NCBI GenBank assembly: GCA_900556485.1 | Contig: USOX01000012.1 | Location: 1-64,000 of the forward strand | Reading direction: 5' to 3' | DNA from: an uncultured Dysgonomonas sp. | GTDB taxonomy: Bacteria > Bacteroidota > Bacteroidia > Bacteroidales > Dysgonomonadaceae | Length of the DNA: 64,000 nucleotides | Shown here: piece by piece, positions 569 through 25,265 of the stretch | Numbering within the stretch: the first letter of the stretch is position 1 | How the letters are laid out: each line of letters begins with the position of its first letter | Notes under the pieces: generated by a model | What the model was told of the DNA's origin: nothing | The model's database searches: none | What the model saw: only the letters and a program-made list of their open reading frames with translations | Program-made: the position numbers and the translations under genes

Positions 569-659
569 AATTATTATTGAATCAGTAGTTGAAATATATG
601 TTCTATTCTTTTATACATAAAGGCTATTTTATTCTGATTTTTGAGACCTTTGCTCATTA

Positions 660-1157
660 CTGTCGCGCCCTCCCGGGCTTGCCCCTTCTTTTGGCATTGC
701 CCAAAAGAAGGCAAAAGGCTAGTGCTGAGCCCCTCGGCGACCTGTCATCGGCTTGCCGGCTGAATCAAACCTACGGGCTATCGCCCCGTTTGATTCTACG
801 CCGAACTTCACCGGACAGGTGCCCGCCTGCGGAACTCTATGCACGGGAGGCTGACGCACCACAAGAACTTCGATGCACTTCTCTTGTCGTGGCTTTGCCT
901 TAGCGCCGTTCGTTGAGCGTACGGGGTACCCACCCATCGAAGGTGGCGTAGAATGAAGTGCGGTGGATGCTATGCAAATCTACCTAAACATCAGGAAGAT
1001 TGTTTTTAGCTTCACTTCATTCAGCCGACAAGATGATGGTGGGTCGTACAGCGAGGCGCGGCGCTAAAGAGTTTTTAGTTACTTTTGGGGCTTTGGCCAA
1101 AAGTGACGCAAGCAATCTTCGATTGTGCGCAGTATAAAAGAATAGAACATATATTTC
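660..1157 (+). repeat. GC-rich structured dispersed repeat, copy A (about 0.5 kb)
   Basis: This block is repeated in the same orientation at 14087-14584, at almost the same length and with scattered substitutions and small indels. It is much richer in GC than its surroundings. It carries many inverted repeats: an 11-bp stem 684-694/701-711, ACTTTTGG 1081-1088 with CCAAAAGT 1097-1104, ATTCTACGCC 793-802 with GGCGTAGAAT 945-954, and GAATCAAAC 762-770 with GTTTGATTC 788-796. Weak similarity extends some 25 bp beyond both ends. Short open frames across it are not conserved in frame between copies because of indels, so it looks non-coding: a structured RNA or a non-autonomous element. It ends about 50 bp upstream of the histidine kinase gene at 1211. 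Confidence 0.8.
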
Positions 1158-1210
1158 AACTACTGAATCCCATAACTCGTAATTCACAAATTAGCTGTTA
1201 TATTTGTAAT

Positions 1211-7714: not shown

Positions 7715-7825
7715 TGTTGCAATATTTATGATTCAGTATCTATTTGTAAAGATAATAAATTGTACATTTAGTTGTACAACTAGAATTAAAAACTTTCCAT
7801 ACTCTTTCTCTCCACTACTACCTCT

Positions 7826-7884
7826 GCTACCGTGCGATTGCATTGCGTGGTCAATTAAGTCACGCGATACAATCGCGCGACAGC
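7826..7884. repeat. REP-like palindromic repeat, copy 1
   Basis: Two arms of about 24 bp (GCTACCGTGCGATTGCATTG... and its imperfect complement ending CGCGCGACAGC) flank a short loop GTCAATTAAGT. A near-identical unit is at 25162-25220, a single arm is at 21712-21735, and a short relic is near 35028-35048. The GC content contrasts strongly with the AT-rich flanks. The rest of the 7715-8065 gap shows no gene. Confidence 0.85.
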
Positions 7885-8065
7885 ATTGGAGTTGGAATAA
7901 TATCTATAATATCTTTTTACATTTATCTATATTGTATAACAAAAGATTCTTAATGAAACAAAAAGGACACAGAAAAAAATGTATAAAAAGTGTGTCATTT
8001 GTGTCATTTTTGCATTTACTACTTAATGATCACACTTCGAAAGAATGACTTAAACAAAAAATAGC

Positions 8066-12144: not shown

Positions 12145-12726
12145 CTATATCTCCGTCAGAAACTTACACAATGCTTTTACAGCCAAAGCACGGTGGCTTA
12201 TATTATTCTTTACTTCGTTACCCAGTTGTGCAAAAGTCTCATTATATCCGTCAGGCATGAAAACAGGATCATATCCAAAGCCAGCTGTGCCTCTCTCATC
12301 TGTAATAATTTGTCCTTCAATTTTACCTTCGAACAAATATTCTTTTCCATCCAATATAAGGGCTATCACCGACCGGAATTGTGCTTTACGATTCGAAATG
12401 CCATCAAGTTCCTTTAATAATTTATTCATATTAGCCTTAGCATCGTGCCCATCACCGGCATAACGCGCAGAATAAACACCCGGTGCACCATTCAAAGCTT
12501 CAACTTCCAGTCCTGTATCATCTCCAAAACAGTCGTATCCGTATTTTTCTTTTACATAACGGGCTTTTATCAGGGCATTCTCCTCTAATGTCTCTCCGGG
12601 TTCTTCAATATCTTCGAAGCATTCGATATCTTTAAGCGATAGAATTTCGAAATTGTTTCCGACAACTTCCCTTACCTCTTCCAGTTTATGCGCATTGTTT
12701 GTGGCAAATACTAATTTCCGTTTCAT
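12145..12726 (-). CDS. rdgB: non-canonical purine NTP pyrophosphatase (RdgB/HAM1)
   Basis: Enzyme of 193 residues that hydrolyses dITP, ITP and XTP to monophosphates and so keeps deaminated purines out of nucleic acids. Family motifs occur in order: [12 protein letters not shown] at the N-terminus, [33 protein letters not shown] and ISHRALAV near the end. The length is normal. Its ATG overlaps the stop of the aminotransferase gene by 4 bp, so the two are co-translated. Confidence 0.95.
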
Positions 12727-13925
12727 TTTTTTTCCAATGAGTTATATGTTTCTAATGCTTTCTCTAATACAGTAAGTGCGTTAGCTAAATCTTCTTTATT
12801 AAGGACATATGCAATACGGACTTCATTTACACCGAGTCCCGGCGTGGTATAAAAGCCCGATGCAGGAGCCATAAATACGGTTTGTCCTTCATACTCAAAG
12901 TCTGACAAGCACCATTCACAGAACTTATCTGCATTGTCGACAGGTAGACGAGCTACCGTATAAAACGCGCCCATCGGTATCGGTGAATAAACACCCGGAA
13001 TACGGTTGAGACGATCTATAAGGAATTTACGCCTCTCTACATACTCGTCGTAAGTATCGCGTAAATAATCCGGACTGGCATCTAATGAAGCCTCTGCTGC
13101 TATCTGCCCTATAAGGGGAGGACTAAGACGAGCCTGACAGAACTTCATCAGTGTCTTACGCAGTTCTTTATTTTTAGTGATCAATGCTCCTATGCGGATA
13201 CCGCACTCACTATAACGTTTCGATACAGAGTCTATCAACACTACATTATCTTCTATACCAACCAGATGGCAAGCCGAAATATAAGGCGAGCCTGTATAAA
13301 TAAACTCCCTGTACACCTCATCCGAAAAAAGATAAAGGTCGTACTTTTGTACCAGATGCTTTATTTGGTTCATCTCGGCACGCGAATATAAATAACCTGT
13401 CGGATTATTCGGATTACAGATCATAATACCTTTAGTGCGCTCATTTATCAAAGCTTCAAACTTTTCGATAGGCGGAAGAGCAAAACCTTCTTCTATAGAT
13501 GACGGAACCGTGCGAATAACAGCTCCTGCCGATACCGCAAATGCCATATAGTTTGCATATGCAGGTTCGGGAACGATTATTTCATCACCCGGATTAAGAC
13601 ATGCAAGAAAAGCAAATAGAACAGCCTCGGAACCACCTGTAGTTATGATAATATCATCTGCCGAAACATTTATATTATACTTCGCATAATAGCCTACCAG
13701 TTTTTCGCGGTACGAACGATATCCATCACTGGGACTATATTCCAGAATAGAACGGTCTATATTACGAATGGCGTCGAGGGCTTCCTGTGGTGTAGGCAGA
13801 TCCGGCTGACCTATATTCAGGTGATATACTTTCAGTCCTCTGGCCTTTGCTGAGTCTGACAACGGAGCCAATTTCCTTATCGGCGAATTTGGCATCTCTA
13901 TTCCTCGCTGCGAAATATGTGGCAT
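12723..13925 (-). CDS. class I/II PLP-dependent aminotransferase (AspC-like)
   Basis: Fold-type I aminotransferase of 400 residues. The conserved elements are [11 protein letters not shown] (substrate side), TTGGSEAV (PLP phosphate contact), [11 protein letters not shown], and [10 protein letters not shown] with the PLP-pyridine Asp. [14 protein letters not shown] carries the Schiff-base Lys, and NEVRIAYVL carries the carboxylate-binding Arg. The amino donor and acceptor cannot be named from sequence. It is the first gene of a two-gene unit with rdgB (4-bp overlap). Confidence 0.92.
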
Positions 13926-13971: not shown

Positions 13972-14086
13972 CAATAATAGTTAGAATTTTACAGCAATGA
14001 TAATCTGTAGTTGGATAGAAAAAATAGTTCTTTAAATTTATGTATAACAACTATCTTATTTTTGATTTTGTAGCTTTAGCATATTC

Positions 14087-14584
14087 CTGTCGCGCCCTCC
14101 CGGGCTTGCCCCTTCTTTTGGCATTGCCCAAAAGAAGTCAAAAGGCTAGTGCTGAGCCCCTCGGCGACCTGTCAAACGGCTTGCCCGCTGAATCAAACCT
14201 ACGGGCTATCGCCCCGTTTGATTCTACGCCGCCTTTACCGGACAGGTACCCACCTGTGGGACCCTATGCACAGAAGGCTAACGCACGACAAGAACTTCGA
14301 TGCACTTCTCTTGTCGTGGCTTTGCCTTAGCGCCGTTAGGCGAGCGTATGGGGTACCCACTCATCGAAGGGGGCGTAGAATGAAGTGGGGTGGCTGTTTT
14401 ACAAACCTCATAGAATATCAGAAAGGTTGTATTTTACATCACTTCATTTAGCCGACAAGATGATCGTGGGTCGTACGGCGAGGCATGGCGCTAAAGAGTT
14501 TTTGGTTACTTTTGGGGCTTTGTCCAAAAGTGACGCTAGCAATCTTCGATTGCGCGCAGCATACAAGAATAAAACATATATTTT
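14087..14584 (+). repeat. GC-rich structured dispersed repeat, copy B (about 0.5 kb)
   Basis: This is the second copy of the block at 660-1157, same orientation. The paired elements are kept: the stem around CTTCTTTTGGC/GCCCAAAAGAAG, ATTCTACGCC 14221-14230 with GGCGTAGAAT 14372-14381, and CACGACAAGA with TCTTGTCGTG (a longer stem than in copy A). GAATGAAGTG and CACTTCATTT, which pair with one wobble, are also kept. Several substitutions between the copies fall in loops. The left end CTGTCGCGC and right end GCGCGCAG are imperfectly complementary. It lies between the divergent upstream region of the aminotransferase gene and the 3' end of the esterase gene. Confidence 0.8.
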
Positions 14585-14613
14585 AAATACTAACCCACAT
14601 TAGTAAACAATAA

Positions 14614-15597
14614 TCAATCCACTCTATTATAAACACTTTTATACATACTTCCTACAAAAGTCATGCTTACCACTTTTCCCTCCGCATCTCTATTGACTTC
14701 CATATAGTCGAATGCGTCTGGTTTCATAAAGAAAGTATTATCAGAAAATGGATGCATCGTTTCTTGCAGCTTACCTTTTCTCATCAAATCCAGCGTATTA
14801 TCTCCGGCTACCAGCTGTATAGTATCCGGATATTCTTGGGCAGCATAAGTTCCGGCATATATCTCTAATAAAGCTTTGTCTATTTGCACCTCTGTATATT
14901 TAAAACGCTTGTGCGACAGCATCCAGTCATATATTTCATCATTGCTATAAGTCTGTGTCCAGCTATCATGTTTTACACCCGGATAGACAGTAAACTTAAC
15001 ATTCGGATTATTCAATGGCTTAAGTGCATCTATCATCTTCTGCGAATTAGATATATTTACTACATCGTCGCTATCGCCATGAAAACACCAGACAGGCATA
15101 TGTTGCAACCCATACACCCTATCAGGGCTACCTCCTCCACAAATAGGAAGAATAGCTGCAAACATTTCAGGATAAGACTGGGCCGTTTGCCATGTTCCAA
15201 ATCCTCCCATACTAAGACCGGTCAGATAAATCCGGTCGCTGTCTACTCTGTAATTTTCGCTCAGATTTAATATAAGCTTACGAATAAAGTCAGGTCTCCA
15301 TCCTCTTTCGGGTGCTTGCGGAGAAACTACTATAAACGGGAATTTCTTACCTTGTTCTATCAATTTGGGAGGCCCATGTACTTTTATTTTATCTACGTCA
15401 TCGCCACACTCTCCTACCCCATGAAGAAAAACCATCATAGGCCATTGTGTGCTATCCGCATCATAGCCATCGGGCAGATAAAGCAGATAGTTCATTTCGT
15501 TTATTACTATCTTATGTGAAGTTTGTTGGGCAAATACAACCAACGGAATAAAGAGAAGAAATGATAAAACCATTCTTCTGGCATAAAAATGATTCAT
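14614..15597 (-). CDS. secreted alpha/beta-hydrolase (feruloyl esterase/PHB-depolymerase-like)
   Basis: Protein of 327 residues with a signal peptide ending near VVFAQQ. The hydrolase core shows MVFLHGVGECGDD (oxyanion-hole HG), the nucleophile elbow LTGLSMGGFGTW with Ser in GLSMG, the acid region WCFHGDSDDVV, and VKHDSWTQTY with the catalytic His. The last 90 or so residues form a small beta-rich domain (EIYAGTYAAQEYPDTIQLV). This architecture is common in Bacteroidetes esterases acting on plant-polysaccharide esters, but the substrate is inferred only. No polysaccharide-utilisation genes adjoin it. Confidence 0.85.
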   Translation of the reverse strand: MNHFYARRMVLSFLLFIPLVVFAQQTSHKIVINEMNYLLYLPDGYDADSTQWPMMVFLHGVGECGDDVDKIKVHGPPKLIEQGKKFPFIVVSPQAPERGWRPDFIRKLILNLSENYRVDSDRIYLTGLSMGGFGTWQTAQSYPEMFAAILPICGGGSPDRVYGLQHMPVWCFHGDSDDVVNISNSQKMIDALKPLNNPNVKFTVYPGVKHDSWTQTYSNDEIYDWMLSHKRFKYTEVQIDKALLEIYAGTYAAQEYPDTIQLVAGDNTLDLMRKGKLQETMHPFSDNTFFMKPDAFDYMEVNRDAEGKVVSMTFVGSMYKSVYNRVD

Positions 15598-21497: not shown

Positions 21498-21711
21498 GAT
21501 TTAAATTTCTATCAATCTAGTTAACACATACATTTCTTTGTGTCGCAAATTTCTTACAAACCTTTTAGATTGTTGGAAAAATACTGTTCAATAAAGGAGA
21601 AAATATGACCGTTGGGAAGAAATTATGAGTTAGGGGTTATAAATTATGAGAGAAAGTAAGAGGATGTATTGTTAGTGACTTGTAGGGACGAAACAATGTC
21701 TTCTGTATTCC

Positions 21712-21735
21712 CACGCGATGCAATCGCGCGGTAGC
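21712..21735. repeat. REP-like repeat, single arm
   Basis: CACGCGATGCAATCGCGCGG and the following TAGCC match one arm of the palindromes at 7826-7884 and 25162-25220. The second arm and loop are missing. Confidence 0.7.
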
Positions 21736-21761
21736 CGTGGGCTAGAAAATCTAAGTGTATT

Positions 21762-22746: not shown

Positions 22747-22759
22747 CTATATTTCTTCT

Positions 22760-22767
22760 TATCTTTG
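22760..22767 (+). promoter_or_regulatory. minus-7 box of the cobalamin locus
   Basis: TATCTTTG matches TAnnTTTG and lies just upstream of the riboswitch, so the predicted RNA would start about 10 nt before the aptamer. Confidence 0.55.
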
Positions 22768-22785
22768 TCTCACTTTGTTCTGTAA

Positions 22786-22978
22786 TAGATGAAAAGGGAA
22801 TCAGGTGTAAATCCTGAACAGACCCGCTGCTGTAAGCTCTATTAAAAGTTTTTGAACAATACCCAAAACCACTGTTTTGACAAGCTGTTAGCCATTAGCT
22901 GATAGTTGTTAGCACGGAAAGCTAACTAAAAATGGGAAGGACGTTCAAAAAAAGAGTAAGTCAGAAGACCTGCAAAGT
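22786..22978 (+). ncRNA. cobalamin (AdoCbl/B12-family) riboswitch
   Basis: The aptamer landmarks are in order: AAAAGGGAATCAGGTGTAAA with TCCTGAACAG, then the B12 box-like core CCCGCTGCTGTAAGC. After a variable peripheral region come GGGAAGGACG and finally AGTCAGAAGACCTGC, which pairs back with the first segment. This is the standard B12 element of Bacteroidetes placed before TonB-dependent B12 receptors. It should lower expression of the btuB-btuG-btuF genes when cobalamin is plentiful. An open frame that crosses it (22932-23165) is an artefact. Confidence 0.95.
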
Positions 22979-23097
22979 AATATTTTCGAAAAGCTTTCGA
23001 GGAATAAGGCTTAAGAAACATCTGCAGAAGGAGCACTACTCTTTTTCCTTTGTTCTTACCGGAAGCAATTTTTATCAGTTAAAATTGTCTGTTGCAG

Positions 23098-25077
23098 ATG
23101 AGAACTTCACTTTTTATTATTTCTTTCCTTTGTATATGCACTTCCGTATATGCCCAGAAGAATGACAGTATAAAAACACAGCTGCTGCACGAAGTAGAAG
23201 TTTCTACAAAAGCCAAACCATCAGCAACCTTATCAACCACCCCCCTACAGGTTCTCTCTAATGAAGAGCTCTTGCAAAGAGGTATTCAGTCGGTTTCGGA
23301 TGCTGTACGCAATTTCAATGGAATTGTACTGAAAGATTACGGCGGGATAGGCGGACTAAAAACAATCGCCTTGCGGGGAATGGGTGCCGAACATACAGCT
23401 ATCAGTTACGATGGAGTGATGGTAAGTAATGTACAATCGGGGCAAGTAGATATAGGCCGTTTTTCCCTTGATAATATCTCGATGATATCGCTCAACATCG
23501 GGCAATCTGACAATATATTCCAGACAGCCAAAGCTTTTGCTTCGGCAGGGGTACTCAGTCTGGAAACAATAACTCCACAGTTTACAACACATAATTACAA
23601 AGGGCACGGGCGGATAACTACTGGCTCTTTTGGCTTATTCAATCCTATGATAGATTATGCACAAAAGCTGAACGATACATTTATTGTTTCGGCTAATGGC
23701 AGTTGGCAAAGAGCTGACGGAAATTACCCTTTCGAAATGGAACATGAAGCTGACCGCAAGCGTAAAAACAGCGATGTGGATATTTTCCGTACAGAAGTAA
23801 ACCTATACAGCAATCTGGGAAAGGCTGGGCAGTTAAATACTAAATTGTATTACTTCGATTCGGAACGAGGGCTTCCTGGAAGTGTAATCTTTGGCAACGA
23901 CTATGCTGCTGAACGCCTATGGGATAAAAACTTCTTTGCGCAAATGAGCTATACAACCTCATTGAGTAAAAAGTTTAAGCTGAAATCGCAGCTCAAATAT
24001 GATTATGTATATACCCGCTACGAAAATAAAACGGCAAGTATAGATACAAGAGACAAATACAAAGAACAGGAAGTTTATCTATCGAACACTGTTGGGTATT
24101 CCCTTAATAATGAGGTTACTTTCGCTTTTTCGGAAGATTTATTTTACAATAAGCTGCGGAACGAAATCCAGCTATTCGGAGACAATCTCCCCTACCCCGA
24201 ACGATACAATTCTCTATCGACTCTGGCATTCAAATACAACAATAAACGTCTGACCCTTACTTCTTCTCTATTGGGTACATACATATCCGAAGAGGTAAAA
24301 AACAATCGCGAAGACAAGACTTATAAAAAACTTTCGCCATCTGTCAGTGCATCTTATAAGGTGCTGGAAGCAACCAATTTAAGAATAAGGGCATCATACA
24401 AACAGGTATACCGTGTTCCTACATTCTCAGAACTATATTATTCGTCTATAGACAAAACCCTTAACCCAGAGTCAGCCAAACAATTTAACGCAGGGGTAAC
24501 CTGGACAGGAGAAATAGAAGGAAGTTCAATCAGTTTTCTAAGCTTATCTGCTGATGGCTATTACAATAAGGTGGATGATAAAATAGTAATTATCCCAAAA
24601 ACATTCGGAGCTACAACAATGAATGTAGGAAAAGTAGATATAAAAGGCCTTGACTTGAAACTAGCATCCAATATAAAAATAAGCGATAAAATAAATACAG
24701 ATTTATCTATTGTATATAGCTATATGCAGGCACAGGATTTGACTAACAAAGCGAATGATAACTATAAAGATCAGATACCTTATACTCCCGAACATTCAGG
24801 ATCGGCAACCCTGACTTTGAACAATCCGTGGGTTAACTTTTCTTATTCGGTGATCGCTGCAAGTAAACGATATTCTTTGCCTCTGAATATTAAAGATAAT
24901 GAGGTGGATGGATATACAGATCATAGTATTTCGTTGTTTCGCAGTTTCGATCTGAAAAATAATGAATGTTATATACAGGGTAATATTCTAAATCTGTGGG
25001 ATAAGAATTATGATATCATCGCTTTTTATCCGATGGCAGGGAGATCGTTTAAGGTTTCGGTAGGGATGAGATTTTGA
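23098..25077 (+). CDS. btuB: TonB-dependent vitamin B12 receptor (BtuB-like)
   Basis: Outer-membrane receptor of 659 residues. A signal peptide (MRTSLFIISFLCICTSVYAQ) is followed by a plug domain (about 35-145: LQVLSNEELLQRGIQSVSDAVRNFNGI, IALRGMGAEHTAISYDGVMV) and a 22-strand barrel ending in GRSFKVSVGMRF. The B12 riboswitch immediately upstream supports cobalamin or a related corrinoid as the ligand. Start ATG 23098 was preferred over the TTG two codons earlier because it directly opens the signal peptide. It is the first gene of a locus with a surface propeller and a substrate-binding lipoprotein. Confidence 0.93.
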   Translation: MRTSLFIISFLCICTSVYAQKNDSIKTQLLHEVEVSTKAKPSATLSTTPLQVLSNEELLQRGIQSVSDAVRNFNGIVLKDYGGIGGLKTIALRGMGAEHTAISYDGVMVSNVQSGQVDIGRFSLDNISMISLNIGQSDNIFQTAKAFASAGVLSLETITPQFTTHNYKGHGRITTGSFGLFNPMIDYAQKLNDTFIVSANGSWQRADGNYPFEMEHEADRKRKNSDVDIFRTEVNLYSNLGKAGQLNTKLYYFDSERGLPGSVIFGNDYAAERLWDKNFFAQMSYTTSLSKKFKLKSQLKYDYVYTRYENKTASIDTRDKYKEQEVYLSNTVGYSLNNEVTFAFSEDLFYNKLRNEIQLFGDNLPYPERYNSLSTLAFKYNNKRLTLTSSLLGTYISEEVKNNREDKTYKKLSPSVSASYKVLEATNLRIRASYKQVYRVPTFSELYYSSIDKTLNPESAKQFNAGVTWTGEIEGSSISFLSLSADGYYNKVDDKIVIIPKTFGATTMNVGKVDIKGLDLKLASNIKISDKINTDLSIVYSYMQAQDLTNKANDNYKDQIPYTPEHSGSATLTLNNPWVNFSYSVIAASKRYSLPLNIKDNEVDGYTDHSISLFRSFDLKNNECYIQGNILNLWDKNYDIIAFYPMAGRSFKVSVGMRF

Positions 25078-25161
25078 ATTATGAATAGAAAAAAGTTACA
25101 ATGGAAAGTTGTGTAAAAACTGTCACTTTTGTCACTTTTTTAGAGAAGAGAAATAACTTCG

Positions 25162-25220
25162 GCTACCGCGCGATTGCATCGCGTGGTCAATTAAGTCTCG
25201 CGATGCAATCGCGCGACAGC
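25162..25220. repeat. REP-like palindromic repeat, copy 2
   Basis: This is the same two-arm unit as 7826-7884 with the same loop GTCAATTAAGT. The arms start GCTACCGCGCGATTGCATCG and end GCAATCGCGCGACAGC. Changes between copies mostly occur in both arms or form G-U pairs. It lies between btuB and the BtuG-like gene, where it could attenuate or stabilise the operon mRNA. Confidence 0.9.
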
Positions 25221-25265
25221 AACAAGAAATATTAATTATAAATCTTGAAATATAAAATTACAGCA

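Follow-up and report, generated by a model that had tools for sequence, protein, structure and literature searches.

A covarying, palindromic repeat of Dysgonomonas is a non-autonomous transposable element whose interior appears to be kept paired as DNA

The window, i.e., the whole 64-kb stretch of DNA analysed here, contains two copies of a repeat in the same orientation and 13 kb apart, which we refer to as copy A (660–1157) and copy B (14087–14584). This pair had been noted in a sequence-only reading of the window. The two copies are 88.4% identical over 554 aligned bases, and no second pair of blocks of this kind is found in the window. The repeat is real but its length had been put too low at ~0.5 kb, since the similarity extends past both of these limits and the two blocks form the core of an element of ~590 bases. 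Copy A is bracketed by terminal inverted repeats (TIRs) of 38 bases that are 97% complementary and include a perfect run of 35 bases. The homology of copy B reaches approximately from 14002 to 14596, with the same layout as in copy A and with decayed ends. Both copies lie outside genes, in agreement with the earlier claim. Copy A ends at position 1169, 41 bases before a gene for a LytS-type histidine kinase (1211–2227, where 1211 is a chosen start codon), and a LytTR regulator gene is also located downstream. Copy B is located between an aminotransferase gene (12723–13925, minus strand) and an esterase-like gene (14614–15597, minus strand). The GC content is 0.484 in the 500-base segments holding copy A or copy B; the block does stand out as GC-rich against its neighbourhood, but it is not unique in the window, as one further 500-base segment, which holds no copy, reaches 0.486. 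The features of the two copies are listed below; hairpins and arms P3 to P8 are given as they occur in a consensus structure that was derived from 79 copies of the element family and mapped onto the window, and the limits of copy B were read from the sequence.

579–1169, plus strand: copy A, whole element from TIR to TIR
579–616, plus strand: left terminal inverted repeat of copy A, 97% complementary to 1132–1169 (35 bases perfect)
1132–1169, plus strand: right terminal inverted repeat of copy A, pairing with 579–616
660–1132, plus strand: hairpin core of copy A, closed by P2 (660–666 with 1127–1132)
667–678, plus strand: hairpin P3 of copy A
679–714, plus strand: hairpin P4 of copy A
717–899, plus strand: large arm P5 of copy A
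903–1064, plus strand: large arm P6 of copy A
1075–1111, plus strand: hairpin P7 of copy A
1112–1126, plus strand: hairpin P8 of copy A
14002–14596, plus strand: copy B, whole element with decayed ends
14087–14559, plus strand: hairpin core of copy B, closed by P2 (14087–14093 with 14554–14559)
14094–14105, plus strand: hairpin P3 of copy B
14106–14141, plus strand: hairpin P4 of copy B
14144–14326, plus strand: large arm P5 of copy B
14330–14491, plus strand: large arm P6 of copy B
14502–14538, plus strand: hairpin P7 of copy B
14539–14553, plus strand: hairpin P8 of copy B

Two other features of the window were recorded. There are three copies of another, smaller palindromic repeat (GCGCGATTGCATCGCG-like), at 7820–7885, 25156–25221 and, inverted, at 21711–21737; two of them are 91% identical over 66 bases and one is found upstream of a cysteinyl-tRNA synthetase gene. 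A cobalamin riboswitch (22758–22991, 89 bits) lies upstream of a TonB-dependent receptor gene (23092–25077).

Indels between copies A and B break any reading frame common to the two, as had been pointed out before, and when all six frames are read no open reading frame (ORF) longer than 104 aa is found inside either copy, which bears out the statement that the repeat carries no transposase. The ORFs that overlap the hairpin core have ~100 aa. Five proteins match one frame of the block; one of them is encoded in the window and three are named Dysgonomonas hypothetical proteins (window 14007–14326 and records P0002–P0004); these annotations of a frame of a non-coding element are probably spurious, in which case the element family accounts for some of the "hypothetical protein" annotations in Dysgonomonas. 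The short ORFs overlapping the block, one of which is matched by annotated proteins, could also be taken as remnants of a decayed protein gene, but this explanation is extremely improbable, being contradicted by the frame-shifting indels, by the small size of the ORFs across the core, and by the fact that pairing, and not a reading frame, is kept among the copies.

The consensus fold consists of a closing stem P2 around hairpins P3, P4, P7 and P8 and the large arms P5 and P6. The series of inverted repeats reported for the two copies is indeed present in both, and one stem is longer in copy B: the stem ATTCTACGCC/GGCGTAGAAT measures 13 bases in copy A (790–802/945–957) and lies in copy B within a 24-base pair of segments that are 83% complementary (14212–14235/14367–14390). 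When folded as single-stranded DNA, the plus strand of copy A (z = −5.67), the plus strand of copy B (z = −5.38) and the minus strand of copy A (z = −5.05) each beat 100 of 100 shuffles.

Among the 79 copies, which have a mean identity of 68.5%, 90.9% of the cells at the 143 pairs of the structure are Watson-Crick, compared to 79.8% after shuffling of the 3' letters and 27–34% when the partners are slid. The covariation test that had been proposed for this repeat, carried out with our own script and not with R-scape, detects strong covarying pairs. Eight of the strongest 10 among 118,112 column pairs are exact pairs of the structure and all 10 fall within two columns of one; 27 of the 81 testable structure pairs lie above the 99.9th percentile of the remaining column pairs. 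Because the structure was derived from the same data, it was cross-checked between two sets of copies from different genomes. The fold obtained without G-U pairs from set B (34 copies) is 91.6% Watson-Crick when scored on set A (45 copies), and the reverse comparison gives 85.4%. Set A folded with G-U pairs allowed prefers another, long-range fold, which performs worse on set B (69–70%). In the consensus sequences of four genomes, 132–140 of the 143 pairs are Watson-Crick, and the internal loops and the layout are kept across genomes. The loop of P4 reads CATTG in 70 of the 79 copies, and some selection is therefore likely.

Profile searches of fetched DNA yielded 162 non-duplicate copies from 17 sources including the window. 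Near full length were the 79 copies used above; the other 83 were left out of the alignment because they are partial, longer than 720 bases or rich in N. Of 25 genomes from the Dysgonomonas-type genus, 16 match the family by BLAST and nine do not. The pattern of hairpin P4 is found in 72 stretches of the genome collection, namely 54 in Dysgonomonas sp. 521, 15 in Dysgonomonas sp. 511 and three in Prevotella-labelled records. In an order-wide sample 5 of 247 genomes match (G001, G002, G157 and two over ~40 bases only), a low-sensitivity count because scoring was limited to two candidates per genome, and in a class-wide sample the P8 pattern occurs in 2 of 395 genomes. The elements of genome G157 are diverged; they have the P8 hairpin and ends of the AATCAGTAGTTG type. 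Thus the repeat, for which a lack of copies elsewhere had been named among the refuting outcomes, has many copies in related genomes. Hairpin P4 with the following CAAAAGGCTAGTG (window 684–711 and 14111–14138) recurs in three Microviridae phage records, in matches of ~40 bases with 95–97.5% identity that lie outside annotated genes (e.g., L001 827–865 and L002 31–68). A viral or plasmid origin was rejected: none of the viral contigs matches any of four patterns, plasmids contain no match to the repeat, and the three Microviridae share only these ~40 bases.

The family is variable in length. Deleted forms exist from 99 bases upward, and the TIR-bracketed forms span 99 to ~890 bases. The end-points of deletions show no signal with respect to the stems (0.77 versus 0.75 for random placement; 46 of 52 deletions, poor alignments). 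An optional module of roughly 105 bases, bounded by GTTC, occurs at GTTC in either arm; many copies of Dysgonomonas sp. 521 have it in one arm or in both (for example, L010 3279–3430 and 3951–4100), and the module may itself be mobile. Left and right end types are mixed among the copies, which suggests exchange between them. There are also relatives of 235 bases that have like ends and a different interior. Such elements of 235–237 bases (L151 738–972, L021 6668–6902, L060 4950–5184 and L051 3968–4204), whose interior has no detectable similarity to the family in the one compared (L151), are probably a second miniature inverted-repeat transposable element (MITE) moved by the same enzyme.

Inverted repeats of the GNNAATCAGTAGTTG type form the ends of the aligned copies. 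In a set of 91 well-formed bracketed elements, which includes the 235-base relatives, the two flanking 9-mers are identical at 8 or 9 of 9 positions in 31 cases; with shuffled pairing the mean is 5.5 of 91 at 8 or more of 9 positions, and the maximum in 1000 shuffles is 13. The identity of the flanks is raised at length 9 (z = 13.5), while other lengths from 6 to 12 have z from −1.5 to 2.8. Related empty sites were found as well. A 600-base element (L031 5351–5950), whose own flanking 9-mers match at 6 of 9 positions, sits inside another dispersed repeat, and its flanks, joined after removal of one 9-mer, are 77–86% identical across the junction to 9 or more distinct examples of that repeat that are uninterrupted; near the junction six of these nine are gapless, two have a one-base gap and one has a gap of nine. 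For one 235-base relative, one such related empty site is available. The insertion-target repeat of Dysgonomonas sp. 521 has the form CCGTCTCCGTAGG...CCTACGGAGAC (flanks in L031; L010 4163–4273 and L060 3941–4050). We conclude that the repeat is a non-autonomous DNA transposon (MITE), one of the possibilities raised by the sequence-only reading: the family has TIRs, target duplications of 9 bases, related empty sites, no internal transposase, and many dispersed copies with lengths within 50–1000 bases. Neither copy A nor copy B has a recognisable target duplication, so that both look old. In the search for an orthologous empty site of copy B, its flanking gene was matched in 2 of 25 genomes, in one of them over merely 56 bases.

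The gene context of the insertions was counted for 94 copies on the first copy list, which preceded the set of 162. None of the 94 lies inside an ORF longer than 600 bases; 58 are located between genes of the same direction, 20 between divergent and 16 between convergent genes. Between same-direction genes the element is on the strand of the genes in 39 of 58 cases (39 versus 19). An autonomous parent with matching ends was not found with exact end patterns in 14 genomes, which were searched as one genome, two with a stricter pattern, and eleven, ten of them matching. Two inward-facing end pairs are spaced 1–3.5 kb apart, both in the first genome searched. On contig 25 of G001 a radical-SAM gene lies between the two ends, and the pair on contig 185 encloses a gene with a weak RHS-repeat match along with an ordinary copy of the element; both were discarded as autonomous elements as neither gene is a transposase. 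Among seven loci of IS256 type, the sole transposase type covered, none has convincing matching ends.

A structured RNA transcribed from one strand tolerates G-U pairs and does not tolerate A-C pairs. In the 79 copies of the element the ratio of G-U to A-C is 247:248, even though the program used for folding accepts G-U pairs. With the same script, controls from the genus give 335:13 for RNase P RNA (21 sequences; one of 22 hits was dropped as partial) and 138:10 for cobalamin riboswitches (28 sequences; two of 30 loci were dropped for their length). The symmetry in the element is an average over helices: the G-U to A-C counts are 26:26 in P1, 19:19 in P2, 3:2 in P3, 3:27 in P4, 54:109 in P5, 77:29 in P6, 32:12 in P7 and 12:6 in P8. 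Much of the skew stems from a few single pairs (29 of the 77 in P6, for instance), and in none of the helices does G-U outweigh A-C as strongly as in the controls. As dead copies could blur the tips, the changes were also placed on a tree, where internal branches have 26 changes from Watson-Crick to G-U and 28 from Watson-Crick to A-C. The reconstructed ancestors of the element contain 1.0% G-U and 1.4% A-C, compared to 11.8% and 12.3% G-U and one A-C each in the ancestors of the two controls. The search of Rfam 15 detects no family above its gathering score in the block, and the five matches below threshold, to unrelated families, look like chance; a known structured RNA was rejected on these grounds. 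Consequently, the proposal of a large structured RNA is not supported: of the features of such an RNA the covarying pairs are present, whereas neither G-U well above A-C nor a known family is found. The test that had been proposed would probably have taken the strong covariation as a sign of RNA.

Pairing conserved without an RNA-like wobble bias is most simply explained as pairing of DNA, and we read the data in this way, with the reservation that transcripts of both strands, if constrained, would leave a similar pattern. In such a scenario, read-through transcripts of both strands would fold and be selected, e.g., as an insulator, terminator or RNA stabiliser beside genes. The intergenic location and both orientations of the copies, the good folding of both strands, and the equality of G-U and A-C that this constraint would yield are all in line with it, but it would not by itself explain the clustered double changes described below, and we regard it as unlikely. 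A large structured noncoding RNA made from one strand and dispersed by the MITE is less likely still. The RNA-like covariation, the excess of G-U over A-C in P6 and P7, and the preference for the strand of same-direction genes favour this explanation; the overall equality of G-U and A-C with ancestors nearly free of G-U, unlike in both controls, the lean of P4 and P5 to A-C, and the lack of an Rfam family speak against it.

The tree contains 187 double Watson-Crick changes; 64 of the 137 pairs used have at least one and 39 have at least two. In 52 of 124 cases such changes fall in neighbouring pairs on one branch, versus 14.9 (sd 3.2) after permutation. Template switching between the arms of a palindrome has been proposed as a cause of multi-base compensatory changes (PMC8794818). 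Exchange among copies, which violates the tree, could likewise give clustered changes. Inversions of loops, which arm-to-arm copying is expected to produce sometimes and whose near absence counts against it, occur in none of the row pairs of two loops (0 of 2485 and 0 of 2926) and in 7 of 2850 row pairs of a third. Mutation alone, i.e., template switching and conversion among copies acting on a structure that has no function, would account for the clustered double changes and agrees with the published proposal (PMC8794818). We consider this doubtful in view of the P4 loop conserved in most copies, the near absence of loop inversions, and the internal loops and layout kept across genomes. Arm-to-arm copying together with some selection on the DNA hairpins therefore seems to be the best reading of the kept pairing.

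Our preferred explanation, to which we assign a probability of about three quarters as a whole, is that copies A and B were inserted long ago and belong to a MITE family found in Dysgonomonas-type Bacteroidales, that its transposase is supplied in trans, and that the interior is kept paired as DNA by copying between arms and by selection. The transposase would recognise the GNNAATCAGTAGTTG-type ends and insert the element through a 9-base staggered cut. When either DNA strand becomes single during replication or transposition, the palindromes would form extruded hairpins; mismatched arms would be copied from each other through template switching, the corrected arms would spread via exchange among copies, and there would be some selection on the hairpins as DNA. 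Several observations count against this explanation, including the failure to find an autonomous element with matching ends in the searched genomes, the window copies without recognisable target duplication, the different long-range fold of set A with G-U, and the gene-strand bias (39 of 58), which strand symmetry does not predict. The skews of individual helices (P6 and P7 to G-U, P4 and P5 to A-C) likewise count against it, and the per-helix counts slightly lower our confidence. A more speculative extension, which we hold only tentatively, is that the branched single-stranded or cruciform fold of the interior is a maintained trait, where either strand folds, each arm serves to repair the other, and the fold helps the element to spread or to be tolerated by the host. 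If so, this would be a DNA structure with covariation of RNA grade and yet no RNA.

In the collection of papers searched, none was found on miniature inverted-repeat transposable elements or palindromic intergenic repeats in Dysgonomonas. The element resembles the MITEs of Porphyromonas gingivalis (BrickBuilt, MITEPgRS/464 and MITE239), which also belong to Bacteroidota, are non-coding, occur in multiple copies and carry TIRs; BrickBuilt is in addition predicted to form long stem-loops (PMC4596501). BrickBuilt has IS5-family-like ends (GAGACC...), flanking duplications that are 2–5 bases long or irregular, and a 23-base tandem repeat in its interior, whereas the present element has GNNAATCAGTAGTTG ends, 9-base duplications and a GC-rich branched palindrome (PMC4596501). 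MITECca01 of Cardinium is likewise a high-copy, mostly intergenic MITE of Bacteroidota, but has 240 bases and is derived from a resident IS982-family element (PMC9769881), while our element has ~590 bases and its parent was not found. The element is thus different from the compared Bacteroidota MITEs in its ends, duplication length and branched GC-rich interior.

Large structured bacterial RNAs, represented here by RNase P, share with the element a large multi-branched covarying fold; the element differs from them in lacking an overall excess of G-U and in having transposon ends and target duplications. REP and BIME sequences are short intergenic palindromes that occur in many copies without target duplication and have a RAYT partner gene. 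The element is also intergenic palindromic DNA in many copies, but it is much longer and has TIRs, and its 9-base target duplication led us to reject an identity with REP or BIME.

Covarying pairs commonly count as the strongest sign that an RNA is functional. In the present case, high-copy mobile DNA covaries strongly and yet overall fails the G-U/A-C strand test that two RNAs of the same genus pass, which is a caution for RNA searches that rely on covariation alone. The family also constitutes a natural data set on how DNA palindromes keep their arms matched.
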